From: Verrucomicrobiia bacterium
GTDB lineage: Bacteria > Verrucomicrobiota > Verrucomicrobiia > JABWAM01
NCBI GenBank assembly: GCA_020849895.1
Contig: JADZFN010000003.1
Coordinates: 1 to 64,000, forward strand
DNA: 64,000 nucleotides
Reading direction: 5' to 3'
Below the pieces are notes generated by a model. It searched no databases. It was given only the letters and a program-made list of their open reading frames with translations, and was not told where the DNA came from. The translations under genes and the position numbers were made by a program. Numbering within the stretch: position 1 is the first letter of the stretch; each line of letters starts with the position of its first letter. Below are positions 4,689 through 36,598 of the stretch, in pieces.

Positions 4689-5042
4689 ATGAATCTTCTG
4701 CCTGCCGTTCTCAGTCTTCCGCCGTTGCTCGCGATGGGCGCCCCGCCGCAGCCTGGAGAAAACCCGACCAAAAGCCTCCTCGGCGCCCTCGGGCCGATGA
4801 TCCTCATCTTCGTGGTTTTTTATCTCATCCTCATCCGCCCCCAGCAGAAGCAGCAGAAGGAAACGCGCAAAATGCTCGCGGCGATCAAGGTGGGCGACCG
4901 CGTCCTCGTCGCCGGCGGCATCTACGGCCTCATCGCCCAGATCAAAGACAAGTCTGTGATCGTGAAGATCGCCGAAAACACCCGGGTGGAGATGCTCCGC
5001 TCCGCCGTCCAACAGGTCCTCCCTGCGGAATCGAAATCCTGA
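4689..5042 (+). CDS. yajC: Sec translocon accessory protein YajC
   Basis: 117 residues. One membrane helix (about 36-50, GPMILIFVVFYLILI) is followed directly by the signature RPQQKQQKE and a small cytoplasmic beta domain with GDRVLVAGGIYG. YajC associates with SecDF and SecYEG at the inner membrane. The N-terminal 30 residues are a hydrophobic, Pro-rich extension. It is 81 bases upstream of secDF on the same strand, the usual yajC-secD order, so the two are probably one operon. Confidence 0.95.
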   Translation: MNLLPAVLSLPPLLAMGAPPQPGENPTKSLLGALGPMILIFVVFYLILIRPQQKQQKETRKMLAAIKVGDRVLVAGGIYGLIAQIKDKSVIVKIAENTRVEMLRSAVQQVLPAESKS

Positions 5043-5123
5043 CAGGAGGCCGGCGCGACGAACGAGGATCTCCGCGAACCTCCGTTTGCGTTTTCGCTTT
5101 TCCCTTTTCAGCCTCCTCCCGTC

Positions 5124-7394: not shown

Positions 7395-7460
7395 CCCCAA
7401 GGGTTTTTTACACCTCCTGAAACCCGCTTCCCTGCCCGCGGCCCGCCGCCGCCCGATCTC

Positions 7461-8150: not shown

Positions 8151-8168
8151 CCTCCTTCCCCCGGAGGG

Positions 8169-9287
8169 TCAGGTCCGCACCGGCGAGGGGGAGATCTCCC
8201 GGTAGAGCGAATCGCGGAGGACGGGTTCGCATCCGGCTTCGCGGATGGCGCGGGCCAGTTCTCCGGCGCTCTGTTTCTCCGGAGTTTTCGCGCCGGCCAT
8301 GTGATAGATCGTCTCCTCGACCACTGTCCCGTCCAGATCGTCCACTCCATAGCTCAACGAGACTTGCGCCAGCTTGAGTCCGTGGTTGATCCAGTAGCAC
8401 TTGATGTGATCGAAGTTGTCGAGATACAGGCGCGCGATTGCAAGGTTGCGCAGGTTCTCGAATCCTGAAGGTTCGGGAATCCCCGAAAGCGCGTTGTTCG
8501 CGGGGTGGAACGGCAGAGGCACGAAGGCCGTGAATCCTCCGGTTTCGTCCTGCAGCTCCCGCAAGAGGCGCAGATGCTCAATCCGTTCAGGGATCGTCTC
8601 GACATGGCCGTAAAGCATCGTGCAGGTGCTCCGTCCTCCCGCGCGATGCCAGACGCGATGCACGTCCAGCCACTCCGCCGCCGTCTCTTTGCCGCGGCAG
8701 ATCAGGTCGCGCACGCGCTGGGCGAAAATCTCGGCGCCACCGCCCGGCAGCGAGTCCAGCCCCGCCGCGCGGAGGCGGTCGAGCGTCTGAGGCACACTCA
8801 TCCGACCCACCCAGGCGAGGTGAAGGATCTCGATGGCCGTGAAGGCCTTGAGATGGAGCGCGGGCGAAAGCGCCTTCAACTCCCGCAGCATCCGTTCGTA
8901 ATGCTCGAACTTCCACGAGGGATGCAGGCCGCCGACGATGTGGAGCTCGGTGATCCCCAACGCCAGCGACTCTCGCGCCTTGGCGACCATCTCCTCGATC
9001 GTGTACTCCCAGGCGTCCGCATCCCGTTTCTTCCGCGCGAACGAGCAAAAATCGCAGGAGAGGACGCAGACGTTCGAGTAGTTGATGTGCCGGTTGAGGA
9101 TGTAGTAGGCCCGATTCCCGTTTTTTCGCTCGCGGACCTGGTTTGCGAGCCAGCCCACCGCGTTCAGATCGGACGCGGCGTAGAGCGCCGCAGCGTCGCC
9201 GTCGTCGAGGCGCGTGCCAGCCGCAACCTTCTCGGCCACGACGCGCAACCCTGAGGCTTCCAGGCTTTTTGCGATCGCGGAGTTCAT
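8169..9287 (-). CDS. mqnE: Aminofutalosine synthase (radical SAM)
   Basis: 372 residues. Radical SAM cluster motif CVLSCDFC (CxxxCxxC) follows ILNRHINYSNVC, the usual MqnE/CofG-like context; HIVGGLHPSW, SLPGGGAEIF and the C-terminal HGLKLAQVSLSYGVDD box fit MqnE rather than MqnC. It joins SAM and 3-(1-carboxyvinyloxy)benzoate to make 6-amino-6-deoxyfutalosine in the futalosine route to menaquinone. Together with the MqnP-type prenyltransferase at 36.7 kb this indicates menaquinone by futalosine rather than MenFDHC. It converges with the response-regulator gene (18 bases between stops). Confidence 0.93.
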   Translation of the reverse strand: MNSAIAKSLEASGLRVVAEKVAAGTRLDDGDAAALYAASDLNAVGWLANQVRERKNGNRAYYILNRHINYSNVCVLSCDFCSFARKKRDADAWEYTIEEMVAKARESLALGITELHIVGGLHPSWKFEHYERMLRELKALSPALHLKAFTAIEILHLAWVGRMSVPQTLDRLRAAGLDSLPGGGAEIFAQRVRDLICRGKETAAEWLDVHRVWHRAGGRSTCTMLYGHVETIPERIEHLRLLRELQDETGGFTAFVPLPFHPANNALSGIPEPSGFENLRNLAIARLYLDNFDHIKCYWINHGLKLAQVSLSYGVDDLDGTVVEETIYHMAGAKTPEKQSAGELARAIREAGCEPVLRDSLYREISPSPVRT

Positions 9288-9338
9288 GCCGAACTACCAT
9301 AGGCATGGCGCGCAACGCCCGCAAGAACGGCCCGAATT

Positions 9339-9363
9339 CTCTCCAACGTGAAGGCTTGGAGAG
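9339..9363. repeat. Inverted repeat between mqnE and the ABC transporter operon
   Basis: CTCTCCAA (9339-9346) and TTGGAGAG (9356-9363) are perfect complements around a 9-base spacer. It sits in the 160-base divergent control region, about 85 bases before the binding-protein start. Size and place fit an operator for a dimeric regulator, but no regulator gene is adjacent. No riboswitch was recognised here. Confidence 0.4.
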
Positions 9364-9447
9364 GGCATGATCGTCTTGAATGCCGATTTTTCGTGACGCA
9401 GAATCCCCTCTCGCGAACCGGCGGGGAATCTCGCGACAAGACTCGAA

Positions 9448-10464
9448 ATGAAACCCTTTTTCCTGGCGGTGTTCCTCGGCGTCGGCCTGACGGCTCACGC
9501 CGAGAAAGTCGTGCTCCGCGTCGGGCATTTCCCGAATGTGACCCACGCCCAGGCCGTCATCGCCCATGGGCTCAGCCGGGCCGGGCGGGGATGGTTCGAG
9601 GAGCGCCTGGGGCCGGAGGTGGAGGTGCGGTGGATGGTTTTTAACGCCGGCCCGAGCACAATGGAGGCGATCTTCGCAAAGTCCATCGAGATGACCTACG
9701 TCGGTCCGAATCCGGCGCTCAACGCGCACCTGAAATCCCAAGGAGCGGAAATCCGCATCGTTGCCGGCGCGTGCAGCGGCGGGGCGGCGTTGGTCGTGCA
9801 ACCGGACGGCCGCTTCCGGACGGATGCGGATTTCCGGGGCAAGAAAATTGCCACGCCGCAACTGGGCAACACGCAGGATGTCGCCTGCCGGGCCTGGTTG
9901 CGATCGAAGGGCTTGAAAGTCACGATGACCGGCGGCGAGGCGTTTGTGATTCCCACGGCGAACCCCGACCAGTTGGCGTTGTTCCGTCGAGGCGCCCTCG
10001 ACGCGGTCTGGACCGTCGAGCCGTGGGTGACCCGTCTGGTCTTGGAAGCCGGAGGGCGGATCTATCTTGAAGAAAGCGAGATCTGGCCCGGCGGCCGGTA
10101 TGTGACCACGCACCTGGTGAGCCGTGTAAGGTTTCTCGAAGAACACCCGACGCTGCTCAAGAAATGGCTCGCCGCACACGTCGAACTGACGGACAAGATC
10201 AACCGCGACCCGGCGTGGGCAAAGCAAATCTTCAACGAGGAGCTCAAGGCCGAAACGACTCAAGCCCTGCCGAAGGCCTTGCTCGATCGCGTCTGGGCGC
10301 GCCTGCAGTTGACGCACGATCCGATCCGCGACTCCCTGCTCAAATCCGCCGAGGACGCTTACCGCATCGGATTTCTCCGCCGCCCGCCGGACCTCTCGCG
10401 CATTTACGACCTGCGCTTGCTGAACGCGGCCTTGCGCGACATGAACCGGCCGGAAGTCCCATGA
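9448..10464 (+). CDS. ABC transporter substrate-binding protein, SsuA/TauA/NrtA type
   Basis: 338 residues with a short signal peptide (MKPFFLAVFLGVGLTAHA). The mature protein has the NMT1/SsuA-like layout: RVGHFPNVTHA at the N-terminus, DFRGKKIATPQLGNTQD as the ligand-loop region, and DAVWTVEPWV. It should bind a small anion or heterocycle (sulfonate, nitrate/bicarbonate or thiamine precursor) in the periplasm. The exact ligand cannot be assigned. It overlaps the ATPase gene by four bases (ATGA), so the three genes are translationally coupled. Confidence 0.88.
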   Translation: MKPFFLAVFLGVGLTAHAEKVVLRVGHFPNVTHAQAVIAHGLSRAGRGWFEERLGPEVEVRWMVFNAGPSTMEAIFAKSIEMTYVGPNPALNAHLKSQGAEIRIVAGACSGGAALVVQPDGRFRTDADFRGKKIATPQLGNTQDVACRAWLRSKGLKVTMTGGEAFVIPTANPDQLALFRRGALDAVWTVEPWVTRLVLEAGGRIYLEESEIWPGGRYVTTHLVSRVRFLEEHPTLLKKWLAAHVELTDKINRDPAWAKQIFNEELKAETTQALPKALLDRVWARLQLTHDPIRDSLLKSAEDAYRIGFLRRPPDLSRIYDLRLLNAALRDMNRPEVP

Positions 10465-11261
10465 TCTGCGATTCCGAAGAAGTGGCCGCCAAGCTGACGC
10501 TCCAGGGCGTCACGAAAACCTATCGCGCCGCGCGCGGTTCGGTGGACGCTTTGCGAGAAGTCAGCCTGCAGATTACGGAAGGGCAATTCGTCTGCCTTGT
10601 TGGGCCCAGCGGATGCGGCAAGACGACGCTGCTCAACATCGTGGCCGGACTGGATGAGCCGACCGGCGGGAACGTGCTTGTGGACGGATGCCCGATCGCG
10701 GGTCCCGGACGCGACCGGATGGTGATGTTCCAGGAGCCGGCGCTGTTCCCCTGGCTCAACGTGCTCGACAACGTGTTGTTCGGTCTGAGGCTCAAGCCGA
10801 ACCTCGGCCGCCGGGAGCGCCGGGAGGTGGCGGAGTTTTACCTACAGTTGGTCGGCCTCCAGAAGTTCGCTCGCGCCGACGTCCACGAGTTGTCCGGCGG
10901 AATGAAACAGCGCGTCGCGCTGGCGCGGGCGCTGGCGCCCAATCCGCGCGTGCTGCTCATGGACGAACCTTTCGCCGCGCTCGATGCGCTCACTCGGGAA
11001 CAGCTCTACGGCGACATTCAGCGTATCTGGAAGGAACGCAGGAAGACCATTCTTTTCGTCACGCACAACATCCGCGAAGCCGCTTGCCTCGGCGACCGGG
11101 TGCTCTTGTTCTCCGCGCATCCGGGCCAGATCCGGGAGGAATTCCTCATCGAGTTACCCCGGCCGCGCGACATCAACAGCGTCCATCTTGCCGAACACTC
11201 GGCCCGGATCACTCGCGCGCTCAAGCGCCATCTCACCACGGAAACGGAGGCGGCTGCATGA
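10461..11261 (+). CDS. ABC transporter ATP-binding protein, SsuB/TauB type
   Basis: 266 residues. Walker A GPSGCGKTT, Q-loop FQEPALFPW, signature LSGGMKQR, Walker B VLLMDEPFAALD and switch His in FVTHNIREA are all intact. The FQEPALFPWL Q-loop is typical of SsuB/TauB/NrtD importers. Starts at 10461 by ATGA overlap with the binding protein and ends with the same kind of overlap into the permease. Confidence 0.93.
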   Translation: MICDSEEVAAKLTLQGVTKTYRAARGSVDALREVSLQITEGQFVCLVGPSGCGKTTLLNIVAGLDEPTGGNVLVDGCPIAGPGRDRMVMFQEPALFPWLNVLDNVLFGLRLKPNLGRRERREVAEFYLQLVGLQKFARADVHELSGGMKQRVALARALAPNPRVLLMDEPFAALDALTREQLYGDIQRIWKERRKTILFVTHNIREAACLGDRVLLFSAHPGQIREEFLIELPRPRDINSVHLAEHSARITRALKRHLTTETEAAA

Positions 11262-23619: not shown

Positions 23620-26310
23620 CTACGCGCCGTTCTCGACCTCTCCCTCGTCTTCGTCAGCGATGACGCGTGCAATGGCCTGAAGGCTGTCGCCATCTTCGAG
23701 ATTCACGAGGCGGACCCCCTGGGTGTTGCGTCCCGCGACGCGGATGTCTTTCACCTTGGTGCGGACCATCTGCCCCTTGACTGTGATCAGCATGATCTCG
23801 TCGGTCTCGGTGACCGTAAGGGCGCCGACGACGACGCCGGTCTTCTCGGTGGTCTTCATCGTGATGATCCCTTTACCGCCGCGCGACTGGCGGCGGTACT
23901 CGTCAAACGGGGTGCGCTTGCCGACGGCGTTTTCGCCGGCGACGAGGAGCGTGGCCTTCGGGTCCGCGACGGCGAGGGCGACCACCTTGTCCTTCTTGTC
24001 GAGGGAGATCCCGCGCACGCCGTAGGTGGCGCGGCCCATCGAGCGGGCGTCCTCTTCGTGGAAACGGATGCTCATCCCCTCGCGGGTGATCAGGACGACC
24101 TCGTCATGTCCGCCGGTGAGCTTCACGTCCATGAGGTCGTCGCCCGGCTCGATGTTGATCGCGATGATGCCGCCCTTTCGGATGTTGGCGAAATCGCAGA
24201 GCGCGGTCTTCTTGATCGTCCCTTTCGACGTGGCCATGAGCAGGAATTGATCCGCGCTCCAGGTTTCGTCCTTGTCGTCGGCGCCTTTCCTCCACGGGAT
24301 GCGGATGAGAGCGGCGATCGCCTCCTCGGGTTTGAGTTCGAGGAGGTTGGCGATGCTGCGTCCCTTGGCGGCGCGCCCCATGTCGGGGATTTCGTGGACG
24401 CGCTCCACATAGACCCTCCCGAGCGAGGTGAAGAAGCAGAGGTAATCGTGTGTCGAGGCGGTGAAAAGGTGTTCGATGAAGTCGGTCTCCTGCGGGGTCT
24501 CCCCTTCGCGGGTGGCCATGCCGATCACTCCTTTGCCGCCGCGGCGCTGGGAGCGGTAGGCGCTGATATTGGTGCGCTTGATCAGACCGGCGTGCGTGAT
24601 CGTGATGATCACGCCCTCGTTGGCGATGAGGTCCTCGATGGCGATTTCGCCTTCGTCGGGCACGAGCTCGGTGCGGCGCGGAGTGGCGTGCTTCGCCTTC
24701 ACCGTCTGAAGCTCCTGTTTGATGAGCTCGAGGACGCGCGCCTCGCGCGCGAGGATGTCGGCGAGGTCTTTGATGCGTTCGAGCAACTCGCGGTATTCCC
24801 TCTGGATCTTCTCGCGCTCAAGGCCGGTGAGCTGGTAGAGACGAAGCTCGAGGATGGCGTCGGCCTGCCTCTCGCTGAAGCCGTAGCGGTCGTTCGTGAG
24901 GCGCGCCGGGCTGCGGATGAGGAGGCCGAGCTTCTCCACCTGCCGGCGCGTGAACTCGAATCCGAGCAGCTTCACGCGCGCCTCATCGCGCGTGGCCGAT
25001 TCGCGGATGATCCGGATGAACTCGTCGAGGTTGGCAAGGGCGATGAGGTAGCCTTCGAGGATCTCGGCGCGCTCCTCCGCGTTGCGGAGCTGGAAGCGCG
25101 TGCGGCGCAGGACGACTTCGCGGCGGTGCTCGATGTAGCAAGCGATCAGCTCCTTGAGCGGCAGCGTCTTCGGCTTGCCGTGGTCAATCCCGAGCATGTT
25201 CACCGCGTAGGACGTCTCCAGTTGCGTGTGCTTGTAGAGGTTGTTGATCACCACCTTGGCGATCGCGTCGCGCTTGAGCTCGATCACCACGCGCGTGTTT
25301 TCGTCCGATTCGTCGCGGATGGCGGTGATGTCGGCGACCGTCTTCGTGTTCACCAGCTCGGCGATCTTCTCGACGAGCGTGGCGCGGTTGACGTTGAACG
25401 GGATCTCAGTGACGACGATCTGCTCCTTGCCGCCCTTGAGCTGCTCGACGCCGACGCGCCCGCGCACCTTGAGGCTGCCGCGGCCCGTTTCGAAATACTG
25501 GCGGACAGGCTCGACACCGCACACCATGCAGCCCGTGGGGAAGTCCGGCCCCTTCACGTGCTTCATCAGCTTCGCGAGCGGGATCTTCGGATCGTCAATC
25601 ACGGCGCAGATGCCGTCTACGAGCTCGCCGAGATTGTGCGGCGGGATGTTCGTCGCCATGCCGACGGCGATGCCGGTGGCGCCGTTGACAAGCAGGTTCG
25701 GGAACGCAGCGGGGAAAACGACCGGTTCGGTGCGCGTCTCGTCATAGTTCGGGACGAAATCCACCGTGTCCTGCTCCATATCCTCCATCAGGAGGGCGCC
25801 AAGGTGCGTCATCCGCGCCTCGGTGTATCGCATGGCGGCGGGAGGATCGCCTTCGACGGAGCCAAAGTTGCCCTGACCGTCCACGAGCGGATCGCGCATC
25901 GCCCACGGTTGGGCCATGTGGACGAGTGTGGGATAGATCACCGCTTCGCCGTGCGGATGGTAGTTGCCCGAGGTGTCGCCGCAGATTTTCGCGCATTTCC
26001 GATGCTGGCGGTTCGGGAAGAGCGACAGGTCGTGCATCGCGTAGAGGATGCGACGCTGGGACGGCTTCAGTCCGTCGCGCACGTCCGGCAGTGCGCGAGA
26101 GATGATCACCGACATCGAGTAATCAAGGAACGACCCCTTGATCTCCTCGGCCACGTTCACCTTGCCGATCCGTTCGTCCTTGGCGTAGAGCGAGGCGGCG
26201 GGCGGCGGCGCGCCGCCGGCGCTGGCGGGCGCCGGGGCGGCGTCCGCCGCTTCGGACGGCGTCGGATTCGCGGCTTCCGCGGGGGTCGAGGGCTTGGGCT
26301 TTCGGGCCAT
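23620..26310 (-). CDS. gyrA: DNA gyrase subunit A
   Basis: 896 residues. Catalytic Tyr162 (AMRYTEARM), breakage-reunion domain, then six-bladed C-terminal wrapping domain with the GyrA box QRRGGKG; a second related box is QSRGGKG. This identifies it as GyrA, not ParC. The N-terminus has a 40-residue Ala/Pro-rich extension before [17 protein letters not shown]. In the quinolone pocket the usual GDSAVYD is GEAVIYP: Ala123 at E. coli Ser83 and Pro127 at Asp87. gyrB is not adjacent. Confidence 0.97.
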
Positions 26311-26667
26311 GAGAAACCCGCATTGAAAACGAAAACCGGAGGAGGGTCAATCCAAGGAAGCCTCCGGAAGCCGTCGAAATTCATCCGCTCGAGTCTCCTC
26401 TCCTCCGTCGCGGAGAAGAACTGGGAGCGTCGCGCGGCCTTGACCTTGCGCCCCTCGCTTTTCGCTCATCGGCGCAGCCCGGGCAGAACCGTTTTCTGTC
26501 GAAATTCCGTCGCTGCGAATGTCGCGAATGGCGTGGAGGAGGCGTTGAAGGATCCCGGCGGTCGTCGGATGCAAAAGCGCCGGATGCGAAGGATGGCCGG
26601 CGCCGCCGCTCGCGAGAAGAAATCCGCAGGACGCGAATTCCTCCGCGCGCGGCGTACGGCCTCGGGA
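26311..26667. other. Intergenic region between gyrA and the BMC-operon 3' end
   Basis: 357 bases without a gene I can support. Open frames crossing it have no recognisable protein features. It should contain the gyrA promoter (transcription leftward from 26310) and the end of the BMC transcript. I see no convincing hairpin plus T-tract. Confidence 0.5.
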
Positions 26668-27945
26668 TCAACCGTATTTTTTCGCGAGGCGGAGGCGGTG
26701 ATAAGCAGCGCGCTGCGCGGCAGTCATCTTCGCGAAATCTGGCGCGCTGTTCGAAAGCGTCGGCCAGTCCGCCTTTGCGGCTGCCGCGGGCTTCGCGCCA
26801 CGCGTCGCGGCGGGCGCCGGCTTGCGGCCCGCGCTCGTGACACGCACCGCGTCGCTTCCGCCGCTGTAGCTCATCGTCGCATCGGTCGTTTCGAGGTCTT
26901 TCTCCAGCGGAAGCTTCGGCGCGATCCCCATCTTGCCGAGCAGGTCGTGATAGGCGCGCACCGCCTCCTCGGGCGTGATCCGCCCCTCGGTGATCAGGCG
27001 CAGCATCTCGATGAACCCGAGCTGGTGTTCGGCGCCGTTGATCTTTCGGCCGAAGAGCGCGACGCGCGCGCCGTACTTCTGCGCATCGTGAATGAGCTTG
27101 AAGGCGTCGTAGGTGGTCCCGGCGCCGCCGCCGAGGATGCCGACGACGAGGTTCGGGTCGTATTGCGCGAGCTCCTCCATGAAGCGCGGTCCGTGATAGA
27201 CGATCTTGAGGAAAAGCGGCCGCCCCGCTTCGGTGACGCCCGCGAGGCTGCGGATGATGTGATCGTTGATGAACTCGCCGAGCTTTTCGTCCGGGATGCC
27301 GCTGGGGACGTTCGGATCGAAGACCTCGAGAAAATAGCGAAACTTCTTCCGCTCGGCTTCCTCGCGGAACTCCTTGAAGGCGCGCAGGGTCGCCTTGTCT
27401 TCCTCGATGCGGTTGGTCAAGGTCATCGAGTACAGCCCGAGATTCGCGCCGGGGAACTCGCCGCCGGAGCGATCGCATTCGATCTTACCGCATTGGATAT
27501 GGTCAATCGTCGCTGAGCGGAAGGGTTGCGAGGGCGCCTGGGCATAGGCGCCGTTGCGGACCACCCAGATGTCGGTGGTGTCGTTGGCGCGCGACGCGGG
27601 CGTGATGCGCGATTCCTTGAAAAGCCCCTCCTGAATCGTGAGGCGTTCGTTGACGGAGGCGGACATCAACATGATATCCACGAGCCCCTGCTTCGTCACC
27701 TCGCGGATGATGTCGAGGAACTCGGGAAGATTGCGGTGGCCGTATTCCTCGCGCGTCCAGATCTCGGGAGAGAAGCGCGCGGGGTGCGCGCCCTTCGCGG
27801 AGAGGTAATGGCGCGGGCCAGTGGCCTGGATGCCGTACGCCATGTCGGCGTCCTTGGCGTCGGCGATGATGAACTCGCGCGACGCGGAGTTCGCACGGAT
27901 GGCTTTGAGTTTTTGATCGAGGGATTTGAGCATGAGATTAACCAT
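26668..27945 (-). CDS. Aldolase-like alpha/beta-barrel protein with candidate BMC-targeting tail
   Basis: 425 residues, last gene of the BMC cluster. Residues 1-350 read as a TIM-barrel of the class I aldolase kind: Lys247 in LFLKIVYHG is placed like a Schiff-base Lys, and VGILGGGAGTT (268-278) looks like a phosphate-binding loop. Residues about 370-392 are an Ala/Pro/Lys linker (KPAPAATRGAKPAAAA), and 393-425 form a separate tail ending KMTAAQRAAYHRLRLAKKYG, an amphipathic helix joined by a flexible linker, as in BMC encapsulation peptides. Position, linker and tail suggest it is a lumen enzyme or scaffold. The exact reaction is not known to me. About 240 bases separate it from the dehydrogenase gene. 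Start at 27945; Met at 27933 is an alternative. Confidence 0.68.
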   Translation of the reverse strand: MVNLMLKSLDQKLKAIRANSASREFIIADAKDADMAYGIQATGPRHYLSAKGAHPARFSPEIWTREEYGHRNLPEFLDIIREVTKQGLVDIMLMSASVNERLTIQEGLFKESRITPASRANDTTDIWVVRNGAYAQAPSQPFRSATIDHIQCGKIECDRSGGEFPGANLGLYSMTLTNRIEEDKATLRAFKEFREEAERKKFRYFLEVFDPNVPSGIPDEKLGEFINDHIIRSLAGVTEAGRPLFLKIVYHGPRFMEELAQYDPNLVVGILGGGAGTTYDAFKLIHDAQKYGARVALFGRKINGAEHQLGFIEMLRLITEGRITPEEAVRAYHDLLGKMGIAPKLPLEKDLETTDATMSYSGGSDAVRVTSAGRKPAPAATRGAKPAAAAKADWPTLSNSAPDFAKMTAAQRAAYHRLRLAKKYG

Positions 27946-28186: not shown

Positions 28187-29113
28187 TCAGCCCTTGACCT
28201 TCTGCAGCGTTTCCTGGAGCGCGCGGGCGGAGTTTTGGAGGGCGGTCTTTTCCTTGGGCCAGAGCGCGATCTCGACCTGATCGAGCACCCCCTTGCGCCC
28301 GATCACCGTCGGCACGCTGAGACAGATGTTCCGGATCCCATAGGCGCCCTGCTGGAGCGACGAGACCGGCTGGAGCCGGCGCTGGTCGAGCGCGATCGCA
28401 TGGATCGTGTCGCAGATGGCAAGGGCCACGGCCCATCCGGCGCCGCCCTTGCGCTGGATCACCTCGGCGCCGCTGCCGCGCGTACGCGCGAAAATCCGCG
28501 TCTGAATCGCGGGGTTGAAGCCGGGCAGCCCGGCGAGCGGCAGGCCGTTCACGGTGGCTGAAGACCAGATCGGCGCCATCGAGTCGCCGTGTTCGCCGAG
28601 GATGAGCGCACGCACTTGGGTGGGCGCGAGTTTCAGCTCGTCGGCGATGAGTGAACAGAAACGCGAGGTGTCGAGCTGCGTTCCCAACCCGATCACCTGT
28701 CTCCAACAGAGTCCGAGTTCCTTCGCCGCGAGCTGGGTAAGGATGTCCACGGGATTGGAAACGACGAAGACGATCGCGTCCTTACGGAATCCACCCGTCC
28801 GGATCCCCTCGAGGATCTGGCGGAAGAGGCCGACGTTGCGGTGGATGAGATCGAGTCGCGATTCGTCGGGCTTGCGCCGCAGGCCAGCGGTGATGAGGAA
28901 GATGTCGCTGTCCGCCGCGCGCGCGTAATCGCCCGCATAAATCCGCTGGTCCGCGGCGAACGCTGCCCCGTGGAGGAGATCGAGCGCCTCGCCTTCGGCC
29001 AGCGCCACGTTGGCATCGAGGAGTTGAATTTCGGAGACCGCGCCGCCGCACTGAAGCGCGAAGGCCGCGCAGGAACCGACGCGGCCGCCGCCGCCGATGA
29101 TGGATACCTTCAT
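28187..29113 (-). CDS. Lactate/malate dehydrogenase family protein of the BMC
   Basis: 308 residues. Glycine loop GGGGRVGS, Asp33 (LLDAN, favouring NAD over NADP), substrate Arg in LDTSRF and catalytic His175 (GEHGDS). The specificity loop reads TAGLRRKPDESR; Arg80 is at the position that is Gln in lactate and Arg in malate dehydrogenases, so the loop is malate-like. LDH/MDH homologues are a known component of PVM microcompartment loci, where a cofactor-recycling role has been proposed. The product here could oxidise or reduce a lactaldehyde-derived metabolite; that is inference. No terminal targeting helix is evident. Confidence 0.88.
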   Translation of the reverse strand: MKVSIIGGGGRVGSCAAFALQCGGAVSEIQLLDANVALAEGEALDLLHGAAFAADQRIYAGDYARAADSDIFLITAGLRRKPDESRLDLIHRNVGLFRQILEGIRTGGFRKDAIVFVVSNPVDILTQLAAKELGLCWRQVIGLGTQLDTSRFCSLIADELKLAPTQVRALILGEHGDSMAPIWSSATVNGLPLAGLPGFNPAIQTRIFARTRGSGAEVIQRKGGAGWAVALAICDTIHAIALDQRRLQPVSSLQQGAYGIRNICLSVPTVIGRKGVLDQVEIALWPKEKTALQNSARALQETLQKVKG

Positions 29114-29157: not shown

Positions 29158-30189
29158 TCAGCTCTTGCCTGCAAGGCGAATCAGGATCTGGTCGGTGATG
29201 CTCTGGACGATCTTTTCAATTTCCGGATCGGCCGAGGGCGCGACGGCTTCCGACGGCGTCACGCAGGTGACTCCGGGACGCCAGTCGCTGTTGTCACAAA
29301 GCTCGCATTCCTTGAGCCCGAGGCGCGGGTCGGGAATGCCGAGCTTCTGCTTGATTCGGAGGAGGTCGCCGAGCTGTTCGCCGCTGAACGTCTTGAGGTC
29401 GGTGCCGAGCTGGGCCGCAGCAAGCACCGTGCGGCAGTAGGCCTCCACGATCTCCATTTTGAAATAGGAGTCCTCGACGCCCAGATGGCTCCAGGACACG
29501 ACGCCGTGATTGGCCATGAGGATCGTGTTGTGCTGCTCGGTGAGGTCGGCGACGAGCTTGCCCATCTCGGGTGTGCCCGGCGTGCGATACGGGGCGATCG
29601 GCACTTTTCCGACGAACACCTCAATTTCGGGAATCATACAGGTGGGCGGTGTCACGCCCGCGATCGCAAAGGCCGTGGCATGCGGCGGATGACAATGCAC
29701 CACCGCCTTCGCCTTCGGCTGGCGCTTCATGATTTGGAGATGCATCAGGATCTCGCTTGTGCGCCGTTTGACGCCGGCAAGCTGCCGGCCTTCCATATCC
29801 ACGAAACAAAGGTCTTCGGGCTTCATGAACCCTTTGGAAACAAGCGTCGGTGTGCAGAGCACGACGTTTTCGTTGATCCGGATCGAGAGGTTCCCGCCGT
29901 TGCCATCCACATACTCGCGCGCCCAGAGGCGGCGGCCGATGTCGCAAATCTGCTCCTTGAACGCTTGCACCTCGAGGGAATGGAAAAGGGTTTCGAGAGC
30001 GCTTGCGCCTTTCGGCGTTCCGGCCGACGCGCCCGGCGCCGGCGCCCCGCGCGCGACGCCCCCCGCCTGGATTTCGTTCAGGCGGTCCTTCGCCGAAGGC
30101 GTCAGCAGCGCCCCGTCGGGGAGCGTCACTTGGCCGCCGCCCTGGCGGGCGAGCCGTTCGATGTCCCGGACGCTGAGAAGAGTCTTCAT
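29158..30189 (-). CDS. Class II aldolase (fuculose/rhamnulose-phosphate type), BMC cargo
   Basis: 343 residues. Zn-binding His165 and His167 (VVHCHPPH) and His228 (ANHGVV); GNGGNLS and GSAG-like substrate loops are typical of class II aldolase/adducin enzymes that split fuculose-1-P or rhamnulose-1-P to L-lactaldehyde and DHAP. The protein is longer than free aldolases: residues 1-40 (SVRDIERLAR, then LPDGALLTPSAKDR) form an extra N-terminal module after which a Gly/Ala linker runs to about 62, and residues 321-343 (DPEIEKIVQSITDQILIRLA) make an amphipathic C-terminal helix like known encapsulation peptides. A Cys cluster (C295xxC298) precedes it. Overlaps the upstream BMC-P gene by four bases. 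Confidence 0.9.
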   Translation of the reverse strand: MKTLLSVRDIERLARQGGGQVTLPDGALLTPSAKDRLNEIQAGGVARGAPAPGASAGTPKGASALETLFHSLEVQAFKEQICDIGRRLWAREYVDGNGGNLSIRINENVVLCTPTLVSKGFMKPEDLCFVDMEGRQLAGVKRRTSEILMHLQIMKRQPKAKAVVHCHPPHATAFAIAGVTPPTCMIPEIEVFVGKVPIAPYRTPGTPEMGKLVADLTEQHNTILMANHGVVSWSHLGVEDSYFKMEIVEAYCRTVLAAAQLGTDLKTFSGEQLGDLLRIKQKLGIPDPRLGLKECELCDNSDWRPGVTCVTPSEAVAPSADPEIEKIVQSITDQILIRLAGKS

Positions 30190-30485
30190 AGGGGCGAGTA
30201 GTGGATGGCGTCCACGAGGGCGACGTTGATCGCGTCAATTGGTGTGGGCTTCTGGAATGGCATGGCGGCCTCGCGTCCTTCCTCGATCGCGACGACGTCG
30301 CCCACTCCGCCACCCAGTTGATCGTAGGCGACCACGCTCGGCTCGGCGCCGAGAACCGGCGGGCGGACGGCGAGCGAAGGGAAGCCTTCGCGGGTGGCCG
30401 GGCTGACGATCAGCCAGCGGCCGCCTTCGAGGGCGGGCACAGAGCGGCTCAGGATCACACGACCGATGACAGTTCCGAAGCGCAT
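30186..30485 (-). CDS. BMC shell vertex protein, EutN/CcmL (BMC-P)
   Basis: 99 residues, OB-fold pentamer family. MRFGTVIGRVILSR at the N-terminus, VAYDQLGGGVGDVVAIEEG and the C-terminal PIDAINVALVDAI are the standard BMC-P blocks. It caps one kind of shell vertex. Third of three BMC-P paralogues in this operon, coupled by ATGA to the aldolase. Confidence 0.93.
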   Translation of the reverse strand: MRFGTVIGRVILSRSVPALEGGRWLIVSPATREGFPSLAVRPPVLGAEPSVVAYDQLGGGVGDVVAIEEGREAAMPFQKPTPIDAINVALVDAIHYSPL

Positions 30486-30510: not shown

Positions 30511-30774
30511 TCAACGGGTTTCGTCCATGATCGCGACGATCATGTCGCGCACGGGGCTCAAGGGATCTTTGACGGCGAGGCGGGCGGCCGCGCCGTCGCT
30601 GGACACGATCACCGTCTGATGGAGCGCGGCGCCGCACGGATCGATCGCGGCGCGCGGCGCGCCGTTCGGGACGCCCGCGCCGTCCACGGGCTGACAGATG
30701 AGGAGGCGCCAGCCGAGGTAGCTGGGGTGTTTCCGCGTGGAGGTCAGGCTGCCTTCGATCCGGGCGAGGAGCAT
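30511..30774 (-). CDS. BMC shell vertex protein, EutN/CcmL (BMC-P)
   Basis: 87 residues. MLLARIEGSLTSTRKHPS start, LLICQPV, TVIVSSDGAAARL and a short C-terminus. ATG at 30774 lies two bases after the aldehyde dehydrogenase stop; the six-base upstream TTG is unlikely. A divergent BMC-P: the usual D-x-VGAGxGE loop is replaced by CGAALHQTVIV, so its pentamer centre should differ from the other two. Confidence 0.88.
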   Translation of the reverse strand: MLLARIEGSLTSTRKHPSYLGWRLLICQPVDGAGVPNGAPRAAIDPCGAALHQTVIVSSDGAAARLAVKDPLSPVRDMIVAIMDETR

Positions 30775-30776
30775 GG

Positions 30777-32267
30777 TCAATAAATTCTCAGGTTATCCAC
30801 CATCACGCAGCGGCGGACGCGGGTGAAGGTGCGCGGGTTGGTGATCCCTTCTCCGGTCGGCGTGGCGATCGAGTAGCTGAGATATCCTTCGCCACCGAGG
30901 CCGAGCCCCGCCATACAGGGACCGTTCTTGACGAAGAGCGTCGTGTCGAGCGCGCGAGCCATGGCGGTCATGCGGTCCACGTTCTTCGAATGGATGATGG
31001 CGGTGTGGCGATACCCGTGCTCCGCCTCTTTCGCGGCGGCGATCCCCTCCTCGATTGAGCGCACACGCACGATCGGGATGAAGGGAGTCATTTGTTCCTC
31101 GACGACAAACGGATGCGCAGCGTCCGTTTCCGCAAAGAGGAGCGGCGTGCTCTCGGAGACGGCGACGCCCACGGCTTTCGCGAGGACGGAGGCGTCTTTG
31201 CCGACGAAATCCTTGTTGAGCACGGGATGCGGACAACCCGCGCCCTGGCCTTCGGAGAAGCTGAACACCGCCTTCGTGAGGCGTTCCAATTGGGCGGCGT
31301 CGAGGCGGGCGGCGCCGTGCTTCGCCAGCGCCGACATGAGGGCGTCGGCGATCGTGTCGAGGACGAAGATCTCCTTTTCCCCGATGCAGAGGAGGTTGTT
31401 GTCGAATGCAGCACCCTGGATGATGTGCTGGGCGGCCTTGTCGAGGTCGGCGGTGTCGTCCACGAGGACGGGGGGGTTGCCCGGGCCCGCGCAGACGGCC
31501 CGCTTGCCCGTCTGCATGGCGGCCTTCACCACGCCGGGCCCTCCCGTAACGCAAAGGAGGCGGACGCCCTCATTCGCGCACATCGCCTTGAACGACTCGA
31601 TCGTGGGCCGCTCGATGAGGCAGACGAGGTCGGCGATGCCGGTCTCGCGTTCGATCGCCGCGTTGAAGGCGCGCACCGCTGTCGCCGCGCAGCGCGTGGC
31701 GCTCGGATGGGGGTTGAAGACCACGGCGTTGCCCGCGGCGACCATGCTCACGATGTTGCCGCTGATCGTCGGGATCGAGTGCGTCGAGGGCGTCACGGCG
31801 CCGATCACGCCGAACGGCGTATATTCCTCGTGGGTGATCCCGTGATCGCCGCTGAGCGCATAGGGGCGGAGGAACTCGAGCCCCGGCACCAGCTTGATGA
31901 TCTGGAGCTTGGCGATCTTGTGGTCGAGGCGGCCGATCTTGGTTTCCTCGAGCTCGAGGCGCCCCCATTCGGCAGCGTGGGCCTCGGCGAGGCCTTTGAC
32001 GATCTCGATCACCTTTGCGCGCGCGGCAAGGCCTTTCTCCTGAAGGCGGAGCGAGGCGGCGGCGGCGGCTTCGCAAGCCGCATCGGCGGTGGAGAACACG
32101 CCGAGCGCGCGTCCCCCGCGGACGGCGCGAGGCGGAGGCGCGAGCGCCGCAGGCTTTTCCGTGGATGCGGACGGCGGAGCTTTTCGGGAGGCGTGGCCGA
32201 GACGGCCGAGGACCTCCTCGACGACGGTGCGGATGACGGCGTCATCCAGCGCGGGTTTCGAGCTCAT
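30777..32267 (-). CDS. CoA-acylating aldehyde dehydrogenase of the BMC (PduP/EutE-like)
   Basis: 496 residues. Residues 7-24 (LDDAVIRTVVEEVLGRLG) are a classic N-terminal encapsulation peptide, followed by an Ala/Pro/Ser linker to about 47 and the ALDH catalytic domain with Cys294 (DNNLLCIGEKE). In PVM compartments this enzyme oxidises lactaldehyde to lactyl-CoA with NAD. The enzyme provides the aldehyde-consuming step that the shell is thought to confine. PduL and AckA in the same operon take the acyl-CoA onward. Start at 32267 is fixed by the targeting helix. Confidence 0.95.
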   Translation of the reverse strand: MSSKPALDDAVIRTVVEEVLGRLGHASRKAPPSASTEKPAALAPPPRAVRGGRALGVFSTADAACEAAAAASLRLQEKGLAARAKVIEIVKGLAEAHAAEWGRLELEETKIGRLDHKIAKLQIIKLVPGLEFLRPYALSGDHGITHEEYTPFGVIGAVTPSTHSIPTISGNIVSMVAAGNAVVFNPHPSATRCAATAVRAFNAAIERETGIADLVCLIERPTIESFKAMCANEGVRLLCVTGGPGVVKAAMQTGKRAVCAGPGNPPVLVDDTADLDKAAQHIIQGAAFDNNLLCIGEKEIFVLDTIADALMSALAKHGAARLDAAQLERLTKAVFSFSEGQGAGCPHPVLNKDFVGKDASVLAKAVGVAVSESTPLLFAETDAAHPFVVEEQMTPFIPIVRVRSIEEGIAAAKEAEHGYRHTAIIHSKNVDRMTAMARALDTTLFVKNGPCMAGLGLGGEGYLSYSIATPTGEGITNPRTFTRVRRCVMVDNLRIY

Positions 32268-32352: not shown

Positions 32353-32670
32353 TCATCGGGCGTTGCGGGCGTTGAAGATCTCCTTCCCGAGCACGTCCAC
32401 GGTGTCCACGATGCCGATGACGACGGCGTCCACGGGGGCCTCCTTGAGGCCGGGTGCGAGGCGGGCGGAGCTGCCTTGGCAGAACAGCACCATTTCCCCC
32501 TCGCCGGCGCCGACGCTGTCCACGGCGACGATTGTGTTGCTGCCGGGCTTGAAGCGGGACGGGTCCTTGTCGTCCACGAGCATGGGGCGCAGGAGGAGCA
32601 GCTTGCGGCCGCCCATCGAGGCATCCTTCTTCGTGGAGACCACGGATCCCTCAACCTTGGCGAGGAACAT
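32353..32670 (-). CDS. BMC shell vertex protein, EutN/CcmL (BMC-P)
   Basis: 105 residues. MFLAKVEGSVVSTKKDASMGG, LLLLRPMLVDD, VAVDSVGAGEGEMVLFCQGSSAR and the C-terminal VDAVVIGIVDTVDV are the canonical BMC-P pattern; this is the most conserved of the three. Four bases downstream of a BMC-H gene, so both are made together. The 85 bases between it and the aldehyde dehydrogenase gene carry a weak inverted repeat (CTGACG/CGTCAG). Confidence 0.96.
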   Translation of the reverse strand: MFLAKVEGSVVSTKKDASMGGRKLLLLRPMLVDDKDPSRFKPGSNTIVAVDSVGAGEGEMVLFCQGSSARLAPGLKEAPVDAVVIGIVDTVDVLGKEIFNARNAR

Positions 32671-32674
32671 GGCC

Positions 32675-32965
32675 TTACTTGGCGGCGGCCTTGCGGGGCA
32701 GCACCGCCTCGATGTCGCCGTGGGGGCGAGCGATCACATGGACGCTGACGACCTCGCCGAGGGCCTTGGCGGCCTGGGCGCCGGCGTCGGTCGCGGCCTT
32801 GACGGCGGCGACGTCGCCCACGACCACGGAGGTCACGAGCGCGTTGCCAACCTGCATCATGGGGCCGGCGAGCTCCACGTTCGCGGCTTTGAGCATGGCG
32901 TCGGTTCCTTCGACGAGGGCGATCAGCCCCCGCGTTTCGAGCATTCCTACGGCTTGATGGTTCAT
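32675..32965 (-). CDS. BMC shell hexamer protein (BMC-H), variant pore
   Basis: 96 residues, Pfam BMC fold. MNHQAVGMLETRGLIALVEGTDAM is the family start and [20 protein letters not shown] the second half. The pore-lining segment usually reads KIGSG or similar; here it is MQVGNA, with an Asn at the narrowest point, which should change selectivity. The C-terminus has an extra KAAAK stretch. Located between ackA and BMC-P. Confidence 0.95.
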   Translation of the reverse strand: MNHQAVGMLETRGLIALVEGTDAMLKAANVELAGPMMQVGNALVTSVVVGDVAAVKAATDAGAQAAKALGEVVSVHVIARPHGDIEAVLPRKAAAK

Positions 32966-33001: not shown

Positions 33002-34207
33002 TCAGGATCGGAGGGAGGGATTTTTTTTGAGGAGGAGGCGACGCGCCTCGCGAGCAACGACGAGCTCTTCGTTGGTGGGGATGACGAGCGTCTTCGCGCG
33101 GGCGGAGGAGACGCCGAGAGAGGCTTCGGCGCCGCGGGCGGCCTTCGCGTTGGCGTCCGGATCGAGCGCGAGGCCGAGCGCATCGAGGTCGCGGCAGATC
33201 ATCTCGCGGACGTTCGCCTGGTTTTCGCCGATGCCGCCGGTGAAGACGAGCGCGTCGAGGCCGTTCAGCTCGGCGAAGAACGCACCGATCCAATGGCGGG
33301 TTTGGTGGACGAACATCTCGAGGGCGAGCTTCGCGCGCGCGTCGCCTTTCGCCGCGGCTTCGCTGAGGTCGCGCATGTCGCTGTGGCCGCCGGAGACGCC
33401 CTTGAGGCCGGAGTCCTTGCAGAGAATGCGCTCAGCCTCCGCCATCGTCATCCCGGTGGCGCGCATCACGTACGGCAGCGCGAAGGCGTCGAGATCGCCG
33501 ACGCGGTTGTTGTGCAGGACGCCCGATTGCGGGCTCATGCCGAGGCTGTTCCCGATCGCGAGGCCGTTGCGGATGCCGGAGATCGAGGTGCTGCCGCCGA
33601 GGTGACAGGAGATCACGCGGAGCGCGGGCTCGCGGACGGGGTTCGTCTCACCGTCCACGTAGAGGTCGCGGACGCGGGCGGCCACATCCTCGCGTCCGAG
33701 GATTTCGGCGGAGCGTTCGGCGATGAACTTGTGGCTCGCGCCGTGGAAACCCCAGCGGCGCACGCCGAGGTCATGCCATTCCTCGGGAATCCCGTAGCGC
33801 ATCGCCGCTTCGGGCGTCCACTGATAGAAGGCGGTCTCGAAGAGGCCGATGAGCGGCGTCTTCGGCATCCGCCTCGCGAACTTGCGGATGCCGTTCACAT
33901 AGGGCGGATTATGGGCGGGGGCGACCGCGTTGAACGCCTCCATCGCCTCGATCGCAGCGGCGTCCAGCCGCACGCAACCGTTGAGACCGCGCGCCATCAC
34001 CACCTTGAAGCCCACCGCCGCAAGATCGGATGCATCGCGCATCCAGCCGCCTGCGCGGAGTTCGGCGAGACAGGCTTCGATGGCCGGGCCATGGTCGGTC
34101 AGGCGCTCGAACCCGCCGCGCGCGAGCATCCGCTCGCGCCCGTCCGAGAAATCGAACAGGCGGTATTTGAGCGAAGTCGAGCCGAGGTTGGCGACGAGGA
34201 TCTTCAT
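33002..34207 (-). CDS. ackA: Acetate kinase family protein of the BMC operon
   Basis: 401 residues. MKILVANLGSTSLKYRLFDF at the start, SHKFIAERSA, CHLGGSTSI, MSPQSGVLHNNRVGDLD, and VFTGGIGEN are the acetokinase signatures. In PVM compartments this step converts the acyl-phosphate from PduL to the acid and makes ATP; lactyl-phosphate is the expected substrate by inference. No targeting peptide is seen, so it may act outside the shell. Variants from canonical AckA: NLGSTSLK in place of NAGSSSLK. ATG at 34207. Confidence 0.93.
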   Translation of the reverse strand: MKILVANLGSTSLKYRLFDFSDGRERMLARGGFERLTDHGPAIEACLAELRAGGWMRDASDLAAVGFKVVMARGLNGCVRLDAAAIEAMEAFNAVAPAHNPPYVNGIRKFARRMPKTPLIGLFETAFYQWTPEAAMRYGIPEEWHDLGVRRWGFHGASHKFIAERSAEILGREDVAARVRDLYVDGETNPVREPALRVISCHLGGSTSISGIRNGLAIGNSLGMSPQSGVLHNNRVGDLDAFALPYVMRATGMTMAEAERILCKDSGLKGVSGGHSDMRDLSEAAAKGDARAKLALEMFVHQTRHWIGAFFAELNGLDALVFTGGIGENQANVREMICRDLDALGLALDPDANAKAARGAEASLGVSSARAKTLVIPTNEELVVAREARRLLLKKNPSLRS

Positions 34208-34344: not shown

Positions 34345-34623
34345 CTACTGGAGCCAGCGGCCGAGGGCGGGCAGGCCGTCGTGCGGTCGCGGAATCACGT
34401 GGACGCTCACCACTTCGCCCACCTGAGCGGCGGCAGCGGCTCCGGCGTCGGTCGCGGCCTTCACCGCGGCGACGTCGCCGCGGAAGAAGGAGGTCACGAA
34501 CCCGCTGCCGATTTTCTCCCATCCGACGAGGATGACGTTCGCGGCCTTCAGCGCCGCGTCGCTCGCTTCGAGGAGCGCGCAGAGGCCTTTGGTTTCGATC
34601 ATGCCGATTGCTTGTTGTGCCAT
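34345..34623 (-). CDS. BMC shell hexamer protein (BMC-H)
   Basis: 92 residues. [23 protein letters not shown], then the pore segment [14 protein letters not shown], which has the common KIGSG pore. The C-terminus ([12 protein letters not shown]) is a little longer than the next paralogue. Separated from the neighbouring BMC-H by 27 bases. Confidence 0.96.
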
Positions 34624-34650: not shown

Positions 34651-34920
34651 TTACTTCGCGAACGCCTTGATCAGGTCCTCGTGGGGACGGGCGATGATGT
34701 GCGAGCTGACGAGCTCACCCACCTTGCCGGCCGCCTTTGCGCCGGCGTCCACGGCAGCCTTCACGCTGCCGACGTCACCGCGCGCGAGCACGGTGATCAG
34801 TCCGCCGCCAATGGGCACGGTTTTGATGAGGGTGACGTTCGCGGCCTTGACCATGGCATCGCTGGCTTCCACGCTGCCAACGTAGCCCTTGGTCTCGACC
34901 ATTCCGATGGCTTCACTCAT
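34651..34920 (-). CDS. BMC shell hexamer protein (BMC-H)
   Basis: 89 residues, compact canonical BMC-H: MSEAIGMVETKGYVGSVEASDAM, pore segment PIGGGLITVLARGD, and VSSHIIARPHEDLIKAF at the end. Second gene of the operon after pduL. Likely the main facet protein given its canonical form and promoter-proximal place (inference). Confidence 0.96.
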   Translation of the reverse strand: MSEAIGMVETKGYVGSVEASDAMVKAANVTLIKTVPIGGGLITVLARGDVGSVKAAVDAGAKAAGKVGELVSSHIIARPHEDLIKAFAK

Positions 34921-35028: not shown

Positions 35029-35709
35029 TCATTCCTTCACCAGCTCGCACGAGGTGTCGGGCTGGAGGTTGCAGGCGTTGCCCTCGTCGGTATCCATATG
35101 CACCTCGAGCTTGAAGCTCGGGTCCACGCGCGCGACGAGTTTGTCGAGCGCGATCGCGCAGTCGCCACCGATCCGCAGCTTCATCAGATCGCCCGTTTTC
35201 ACGCGATAAAATGCCGCGTCGTCCGGATGCATGTGGACGTGGCGCAACGCGCGAATGACGCCCTGTTTCATCTCGAAAAAACCGGCCGGGCCCATGAGCA
35301 TGCAGCCGGGCGTATCCTTGATGTTTCCCGACATGCGAAGGGGGATGTCGAACCCGAGAGCGATCGCGTCGGTGTAGGCGAGCTCGACCTGATTGAGCGT
35401 CCGACACGGCCCGAGAATGCGAAGGTTCGAGATCACCCGGCTCCGCGGGCCGATCAGGGTCACCGTTTCTTTCGCGGCAAACTGCCCCTCTTGATAAAGC
35501 GGCTTGAAGACGCCCAGCGAATGCCCCTTTCCGAAAAGGACTTCGACCGCTTCCTGCGTGAGATGGCAATGCCGCGCACTCACATTGACGACCAGCGGAT
35601 TGGGTCCTCTGGCTTGGGCGGGCAGCGGCCGCGCCAGCTGTGCATACAACGTTTGTCGCACAAGGTGCTCGATCACGGCGCGATGCGGAGGCAGAACAGG
35701 AGGCGGCAT
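35029..35709 (-). CDS. pduL: Phosphotransacylase PduL (BMC type)
   Basis: 226 residues. Two PduL metal-binding clusters are visible: VSARHCHLTQE and LRHVHMHPDDA, plus GPRSRVISNLRILGP. The first 20 residues (HRAVIEHLVRQTLYAQL) make an amphipathic helix like an encapsulation peptide, so the enzyme is probably inside the shell. It exchanges CoA for phosphate on the acyl-CoA made by the aldehyde dehydrogenase, regenerating CoA in the lumen. First gene of the BMC operon, divergent from the DeoR-family gene. Confidence 0.95.
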   Translation of the reverse strand: MPPPVLPPHRAVIEHLVRQTLYAQLARPLPAQARGPNPLVVNVSARHCHLTQEAVEVLFGKGHSLGVFKPLYQEGQFAAKETVTLIGPRSRVISNLRILGPCRTLNQVELAYTDAIALGFDIPLRMSGNIKDTPGCMLMGPAGFFEMKQGVIRALRHVHMHPDDAAFYRVKTGDLMKLRIGGDCAIALDKLVARVDPSFKLEVHMDTDEGNACNLQPDTSCELVKE

Positions 35710-35812: not shown

Positions 35813-36598
35813 ATGCAAGCCGAAGAGCGACAGCAGCGGATCGAAGAGCATCTCCAAAAGGTGGAGTTTGCGTCGCTCGATGAACTCGCGGAACTCGTGG
35901 ATGTTTCGGTTTCCACAATTCGTCGCGACCTCGACGCGCTCGAACAAACCGGAAGTGTGCGCCGTACGCATGGCGGCGCGCGGCTCGCAGCCCCACGTTC
36001 GGAGGAATGGGTTTTCTCGGCGCGCGACACGCATCAAGTGGAGGAAAAGGAGGCGATCGGGGCCGCCGCCGCCGGGCTGATCGCACCCGGGCAAACCGTG
36101 ATCCTCGACGCCGGCACTACGGTGTATCACATCGCGAAACATCTCACCGACAAGAAGCCGCAGATCATCACCAACTCGTTGCCCGTGGCGAACCTGCTTG
36201 CCGGCGAGAACGCGGTGGAGGTCGTCGTCACAGGCGGCGTGGTCTATCACCGCTTGGGCGTCCTCATGGGGCCGCCCGCAGTGGAGGCCTTCGCGAAAAT
36301 CCACGCCGACGTCGCCGTGATGAGTTCAAGCGGGATCACCCTCGAAGGCGTGACGAACTCCCACGGCCTGCTCATCGAGATCCAACGCGAGATGCTGCGC
36401 GCCGCGCAAAAAGTGCTCCTTTGCATGGACCACACCAAACTCGGCCGAAAATCCATGTCCCCGCTCTGCGGCCTCGACGAGATTGACGTGCTCGTCACGG
36501 ACTCCCGCGCCCCGGCGGAAATTGTCGAAGCCTTCCGCGCCCGGGGTCTCGACGTTCTCCTCGCCCCTCCCTCTTCCTCCTCGGCGAACGGGAAATAG
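35813..36598 (+). CDS. DeoR-family transcriptional regulator of the BMC operon
   Basis: 261 residues. N-terminal winged helix-turn-helix (about 5-58: RQQRIEEHLQK, VDVSVSTIRRDLDALEQTGSV, RRTHGGA) and a C-terminal sugar-phosphate sensor domain with VILDAGTTVYHIA, TNSLPVANLLA and MDHTKLGRKSM. DeoR members are usually repressors released by a sugar phosphate or its aldolase product. Divergence from pduL and presence in PVM loci elsewhere support control of the BMC genes. Start ATG at 35813; the longer open frame upstream runs through pduL's 5' region and is not used. Confidence 0.92.
   Translation: MQAEERQQRIEEHLQKVEFASLDELAELVDVSVSTIRRDLDALEQTGSVRRTHGGARLAAPRSEEWVFSARDTHQVEEKEAIGAAAAGLIAPGQTVILDAGTTVYHIAKHLTDKKPQIITNSLPVANLLAGENAVEVVVTGGVVYHRLGVLMGPPAVEAFAKIHADVAVMSSSGITLEGVTNSHGLLIEIQREMLRAAQKVLLCMDHTKLGRKSMSPLCGLDEIDVLVTDSRAPAEIVEAFRARGLDVLLAPPSSSSANGK

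Follow-up and report, generated by a model that had tools for sequence, protein, structure and literature searches.

What does the last gene of a PVM-type BMC cluster encode, and does its product belong to the organelle? The question is raised by the window, a stretch of 64,000 nucleotides from a Verrucomicrobiia bacterium (contig JADZFN010000003.1), in which an uncharacterised gene, here called X, follows the shell and enzyme genes of such a cluster. A preliminary description made from the letters of the DNA had proposed that X is a Schiff-base-type aldolase carried as cargo beside a class II aldolase, or else a scaffold or regulatory protein. Below, loci of X relatives carry L numbers and genomes G numbers.

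The PVM locus and gene X

The cluster runs in the order PduL, two BMC-H, acetate kinase, BMC-H, BMC-P, CoA-acylating aldehyde dehydrogenase (AldDH), two BMC-P, class II aldolase, lactate dehydrogenase (LDH) family protein and X. The locus is a complete PVM locus, with shell genes, class II aldolase, AldDH, PduL, AckA and a DeoR regulator all together:

26668..27945, minus strand: X, closing gene of the PVM BMC cluster; its 425-aa product is class I aldolase-like and uncharacterised
28187..29113, minus strand: lactate/malate dehydrogenase family protein (pvmO-like)
29158..30189, minus strand: class II aldolase (PF00596), known PVM signature enzyme
30186..30485, minus strand: BMC-P shell protein (PF03319)
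30511..30780, minus strand: BMC-P shell protein (PF03319)
30777..32267, minus strand: CoA-acylating aldehyde dehydrogenase
32353..32670, minus strand: BMC-P shell protein (PF03319)
32675..32965, minus strand: BMC-H shell protein (PF00936)
33002..34207, minus strand: acetate kinase family protein (PF00871)
34345..34623, minus strand: BMC-H shell protein (PF00936 at C3:34384-34611)
34651..34920, minus strand: BMC-H shell protein (PF00936 at C3:34684-34911)
35029..35709, minus strand: PduL-type phosphotransacylase (PF06130)
35813..36598, plus strand: divergent DeoR-family regulator (pvmA-like)

As first described, X closes the cluster: the LDH, class II aldolase, shell protein, AldDH, acetate kinase and PduL genes lie upstream, and the next gene is gyrA. 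The likely start of X is the second ATG (MLKSLD, 27933), and the plus strand of 26668-27945 holds a shadow frame only. X is separated from the LDH gene by 241 nt without a terminator-like site on that strand, and co-transcription of the two in the window's genome is assumed. A 1152-aa frame on the plus strand at 24058-27516, antisense to gyrA and X, is a GC-rich coding shadow and no gene. Outside the window and at a great distance from the main locus, the same genome carries a satellite shell gene of the tandem-BMC kind (G000:C51:40944-41453; a 305-aa frame with two BMC domains).

PVM organelles are described as acting on fucose and rhamnose, with the class II aldolase as signature enzyme, in the available text of PMC4207490, PMC8217296, PMC8156839 and PMC11958385. 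The pvm cluster of Planctopirus limnophila, as presented in the available parts of PMC4207490, PMC11958385 and PMC8156839, has the same shell set, class II aldolase, CoA-acylating AldDH, PduL, acetate kinase, LDH-family dehydrogenase and DeoR regulator as the window. The pvmA to pvmO genes described there include no named class I aldolase, and X is an additional gene in the window's cluster. The accessible portions of the PVM/BMC literature likewise make no mention of a class I aldolase in PVM loci, where X may earlier have been drawn as a hypothetical protein.

Fold and active site

The following elements of X bear on its proposed chemistry:

26881..27933, minus strand: TIM-barrel domain, about residues 5-355, eight strands (AlphaFold2 model, Foldseek)
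27205..27207, minus strand: Lys247 codon, predicted Schiff-base lysine on strand 6 (from invariance and alignment to Lys189 of PF01791 aldolases)
27115..27132, minus strand: GGGAGT loop (residues 272-277) after strand 7, predicted phosphate-binding by analogy with the class I aldolase family
27043..27051, minus strand: GRK (residues 299-301) after strand 8, aligning with GRN, by which class I aldolases bind phosphate

Translated X has Lys247 within FLKIVYHG, in agreement with the first reading; the GGGAGT loop is also present, at residues 272-277 and not at 271-276 as had been given. The AlphaFold2 model, built from 45 homologues, has a mean pLDDT of 80, with 245 residues at 90 or above. It bears out the TIM barrel claimed at the outset, with eight strands in TIM order and Lys247 in strand 6 (245-248). 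A lysine on strand 6 occupies the Schiff-base position of class I aldolases. A Foldseek search of the PDB returned 121 matches at E 0.001 or better, and the best 50 of the 121 are all Schiff-base aldolase-superfamily enzymes. The top match is ADH synthase with bound F1,6P (E 6.6e-10); LsrF, LacD, archaeal FBP aldolase and sulfohexulose-1-phosphate aldolase are among the others.

An hhalign comparison made independently of the model aligned X with DhnA-type PF01791 proteins of related genomes (probability 95, E 2-3e-8), pairing K247 with K189, the invariant lysine of PF01791 proteins, and GRK with GRN. The controls (DeoC, FbaB-type, enolase, URO-D and a reversed profile) gave a probability of 0.5 or less. 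Lys247 is invariant in both alignments of the family (19 and 45 rows) and falls on the invariant lysine of recognised class I aldolases, so that its conservation, on which the original proposal depended, holds. In the 45 rows D29, K31, E207, K247, G272, G273, G276, G299, R300 and K301 are all invariant. The invariance of the lysine and the loops spans Verrucomicrobia, Planctomycetes and a tail-less clade described below; that of the acidic residues is reported for Verrucomicrobia and Planctomycetes.

Fold matches, profile alignment and invariant residues thus identify X, at the level of sequence and model, as a remote relative of class I aldolases that is not a PF01791 member as curated, and the aldolase half of the earlier reading is well supported. 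The DhnA/ADH synthase/LsrF/archaeal FBP aldolase group (PF01791) shares with X the TIM barrel, the strand-6 lysine and the GG and GR phosphate loops, but X is only about 15% identical to it and has about 100 extra residues, with a long linker and tail. LacD and the sulfohexulose-1-phosphate aldolases, which match X in Foldseek at E 1e-8 to 1e-6, act on ketose phosphates; their TM-scores with X are below that of ADH synthase, they have no such tail and they are not known from BMCs. E207 of X, a glutamate on strand 5, presumably resembles the acid of LacD.

Recognition and spread of the family

No Pfam model matches X at a useful level, and no NCBIfam model does so above cut-off; a weak NCBIfam match below cut-off is to ADH synthase. 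Searches of PDB sequences with X, alone or as a profile, found no credible relative, and none of 19 members of the family reaches the curated PF01791 cut-off. Two identities were ruled out by profile comparison, namely a DeoC of the SPU type (hhalign probability 0.5) and an FbaB-type FBP aldolase (no profile similarity).

Relatives of X occur in 19 of 57 related genomes and in at least 515 stretches of a species-genome collection, from Verrucomicrobia, Phycisphaerae, Planctomycetaceae and a few other groups. The gene is single copy in 19 of 20 genomes checked, the 20th having an extra fragment at a contig end. This spread, the invariant Lys247 and the stronger conservation of the tail compared with the linker before it mark X as a family beyond chance.

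Two observations concern the records themselves. L021 (IMGVR_UViG_3300048838_000939, 375-1064), on a contig classed as viral, holds a truncated, tail-less X with about the first 210 residues intact. Its neighbours look phage-structural by eye, and the site may mark the edge of a prophage within X or a join made in assembly. The titles of L041, L045, L069 and L070 say Klebsiella pneumoniae or Akkermansia muciniphila; their PVM clusters resemble those of other Verrucomicrobia and the titles look mislabelled.

Linker and C-terminal tail

Beyond the barrel, X continues with three elements:

26776..26874, minus strand: disordered Ala/Pro-rich linker, residues 358-390, poorly conserved (pLDDT below 50 at 358-388; column identity 0.31)
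26671..26766, minus strand: conserved tail, residues 394-425, WPxLx(N/D)GxPDFxxM(T/S/N)xx(Q/E)RxAY(H/D)xxRLxRxFG
26674..26721, minus strand: predicted tail helix, residues 409-424 (AlphaFold2 pLDDT about 90)

Both the Ala/Pro linker, at about 358-390, and a tail that ends in AAQRAAYHRLRLAKKYG bear out the original description. Mean column identity is 0.59 in the tail versus 0.31 in the linker, and M407, R412, Y415, R419 and L420 are 87-93% conserved against the linker mean of 31%. A scan of the best 80 relatives found the motif in 69 of the 73 that are full length; in the other four it carries a substitution (L054), is replaced by a different tail (L086, L101) or gives way to an altered C-terminus (L077). 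No other protein of the 57 genomes bears the tail, which rules it out as a signal common to several cargo proteins.

The layout of X is that of an encapsulation peptide, a terminal helix of ~18 residues after a disordered, poorly conserved linker. The preliminary description had gone further and called the helix amphipathic. The helix at 409-424 is indeed predicted, but its amphipathicity is not clear (permutation p about 0.18): with a moment of 0.44 and a mean hydrophobicity of -0.38 it is hydrophilic and basic, and it lacks the hydrophobic face expected of an encapsulation peptide. The tail helices of the 69 relatives have a mean moment of 0.37 and a median p of 0.19. Known encapsulation peptides such as those of PduP and PduD are likewise short terminal helices after poorly conserved disordered linkers, but the X motif is basic and sequence-specific, without their defining hydrophobic face. 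The helix is also unlike encapsulation peptides as the available text of PMC12339742 defines them.

In a quick tree of the barrel alone, in which one row is cut by a contig end, tail-bearing X proteins form one supported clade, belonging to PVM loci of Verrucomicrobia and Planctomycetes. The tail-less clade falls outside it. This sister clade comprises 11 rows, 10 of them in one supported group, and lies outside PVM operons. Most tail-less copies come from genomes that do carry a PVM locus or BMC genes, and two of them (L102, L104) are accompanied by a non-acylating aldehyde dehydrogenase.

Six tail-bearing copies are found away from the PVM locus (L022, L035, L047, L055, L071, L087), nested at several places in the tail-bearing clade. 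Each relocated X is the only complete copy in its genome, which has BMC-H genes elsewhere. The retention of the tail after X has left the PVM locus argues that it may act in trans.

Association with BMC genes

BMC-H genes are present in 18 of 19 X-positive relatives versus 11 of 38 X-negative ones (Fisher p 2e-6, shared ancestry ignored). Among 145 near-complete genomes of the phylum, BMC-P accompanies X in 8 of 10 cases against 17 of 135 other genomes (p 1e-5, shared ancestry again ignored). X is absent from 11 of 29 BMC-positive relatives. The cargo reading of X would sit badly with homologues lying mainly outside BMC loci and lacking the tail. For the nearest relatives the opposite holds, with X in the company of PVM genes in 63 of the best 80 and several of the remaining 17 cut by contig ends; the tail-less sister clade, in contrast, does lie outside PVM operons, and such relatives are under-represented in the 80 because these are the best matches. 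On this point the outcome is mixed, and the cargo half of the earlier reading has indirect support.

Gene neighbourhoods outside PVM operons

Where X stands apart from the PVM operon, its neighbours are repeatedly genes of sugar metabolism. A D-lyxose-isomerase-like gene (LyxI), a ketohexokinase-like gene (Khk) and X follow one another in that order in L047 and L086; Khk adjoins X in L035 and L198, and LyxI does so in L193, L194, L195, L196 and L103. The order in L102 is DeoR, X, aldehyde dehydrogenase, LyxI and ketohexokinase, with lactate-utilisation (Lut) genes beyond. L104 has a sugar-isomerase-like protein (no Pfam match, FucI-like by eye), a PfkB kinase, X and an aldehyde dehydrogenase, plus an enolase. 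An arrangement of isomerase, kinase, X and aldehyde dehydrogenase is what would be expected of a pathway in which X cleaves a ketose-1-phosphate to give DHAP and an aldehyde.

These partners are not general ones. LyxI is present with certainty in only 5 of 19 X-positive relatives, so it is ruled out as a general partner of X and its pathway cannot be the general substrate source. Khk occurs in 19 of 19 genomes with X versus 16 of 38 others, but most of these kinases are distant stand-alone paralogues (34-38% identity); the co-occurrence was therefore set aside as evidence, and only the copies adjacent to X count.

In a side observation, ALDH, a gene resembling phosphotransferases and an additional enolase come after the tail-less X of L104 (11340-13830), an arrangement that suggests a glyceraldehyde-glycerate-2-phosphoglycerate-PEP route in that genome.

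Replacement by recognised aldolases and the Phycisphaerae locus L095

In the Opitutaceae loci L151 and L152, X clusters with a class III aminotransferase, a NagA-like amidohydrolase and a Gfo/Idh oxidoreductase. That aminotransferase recurs in G018 (85% identity), where a PF01791 aldolase and a NagB-like gene come after it, and in G010 a PF01791 aldolase precedes an oxidoreductase and LyxI. Both genomes have BMC genes and no X; a recognised class I aldolase displaces X in them. A PF01791 gene beside LyxI in G003 looks LsrF-like and was left out as a displacement case.

L151, L152 and L164 also exemplify a conserved verrucomicrobial cluster of DeoR, class III aminotransferase, Gfo/Idh oxidoreductase, NagA-/NagB-like and FGGY kinase genes, in which X and the PF01791 aldolase are interchangeable. 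It looks like an undescribed amino-sugar pathway.

L095, from Phycisphaerae, is the only locus with AldDH and X but without a class II aldolase. Here X comes directly after BMC-P (CALGJV010000029.1, about 3678-11161), and a search of the genome, a MAG of unstated completeness, for the class II aldolase of the window gave no homologue. An RpiB-like gene (weak match) lies near X between the BMC-P genes, so the substrate may differ at this locus. SPU microcompartments, whose signature enzyme is a DeoC-type class I aldolase, are similar in having a class I aldolase and, as regards L095, in this RpiB-like gene, but X has no DeoC match, and the loci in which it is found are of PVM type, with an acetate kinase and in most cases a class II aldolase. 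L095 may represent a separate BMC subtype, intermediate between PVM and SPU.

Proposed function and alternatives

On the combined evidence of sequence and model, we regard X as a new family of class I (Schiff-base) aldolases distantly related to the DhnA/ADH-synthase/LacD group. Its reaction rests on fold, context and remote homology, since neither PF01791 nor any other curated model recognises it. X is probably a ketose-1-phosphate (DHAP) aldolase that the PVM organelle carries in addition to its class II enzyme; we infer the reaction, the substrate and the encapsulation. Lys247 would form an imine with the C2 ketone of a ketose-1-phosphate while the GG and GR loops hold the DHAP phosphate, and retro-aldol cleavage would release DHAP and a short aldehyde (lactaldehyde, glycolaldehyde or glyceraldehyde). 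The linker and conserved tail would, in PVM genomes, direct X to the organelle, where the aldehyde would be passed to the shared AldDH-PduL-AckA core inside the shell. The organelle would then hold two mechanistically unrelated aldolases, the class II enzyme (PF00596) and X. As substrates, 6-deoxyhexulose-1-phosphates suit the PVM setting, and pentulose- or hexulose-1-phosphates suit the isomerase and ketohexokinase neighbours.

That X is a catalytically dead scaffold or regulator, the alternative initially left beside the aldolase, is highly improbable. The gene is dispensable in BMC-positive relatives, but its lysine, its phosphate loops and its acidic residues do not vary, and in G018 and G010 a recognised aldolase stands in for it; on these two grounds the identity is rejected. 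A Schiff-base enzyme with another reaction deserves more attention, although we consider it unlikely: a transaldolase or condensation like that of ADH synthase (6-deoxy-5-ketofructose-1-phosphate chemistry), or a thiolase-like cleavage of the LsrF type. ADH synthase is the best structural match, followed by LsrF, as well as the weak NCBIfam match, and catalytic diversity is known in this superfamily. However, the recurrent isomerase-kinase-X-ALDH order points to sugar-phosphate cleavage, and in L095 X occupies the place of the aldehyde-generating aldolase.

If X is a ketose-1-phosphate aldolase, it may still work in the cytosol, with a tail made for oligomerisation, self-docking or binding of a partner enzyme and a PVM location that ensures co-regulation. 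We find this rather doubtful. The basic, non-amphipathic character of the tail, its confident prediction even without a partner and the occurrence of tail-less relatives in BMC-positive genomes all agree with it; against it, the tail comes after a long disordered linker, is confined to one PVM-locus clade and persists in copies that have moved to another site of a BMC-positive genome, whereas the tail-less L102 and L104 have a non-acylating aldehyde dehydrogenase of their own. Within the preferred reading of X as an organellar ketose-1-phosphate aldolase, a sub-case concerns the substrate: X might duplicate the class II aldolase on L-fuculose-1-phosphate and L-rhamnulose-1-phosphate, either as a backup that needs no metal or to handle the other stereoisomer. 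In favour of this, loose stereochemistry is a known trait of LacD-type aldolases, and L095 has X alone. According to the available text of PMC11958385, the pvm operon responds to rhamnose and serves both 6-deoxyhexoses. Satellite copies, on the other hand, stand beside LyxI and ketohexokinase-like genes and not beside recognised fucose or rhamnose isomerases, and we hold duplication to be a minority possibility.

Significance

These data suggest two unrelated sugar-splitting enzymes in the PVM organelle instead of the one known so far. A broader view, which we put forward tentatively as a real possibility, is that PVM organelles are two-aldolase multi-sugar metabolosomes, that X is the sole signature enzyme in some Phycisphaerae and that its tail is a new, non-canonical C-terminal tag (PDFxxM..QRxAYHxxRL) acting in trans from satellite loci. 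Among degraders of algal polysaccharides PVM organelles are abundant; if the proposal is true, another aldolase, unrelated to the first, would broaden the range of their substrates, and a function would be provided for a large family covered by no Pfam or NCBIfam model. The tail-bearing and tail-less orthologues of X would constitute a natural set for studying the sorting of cargo into organelles.
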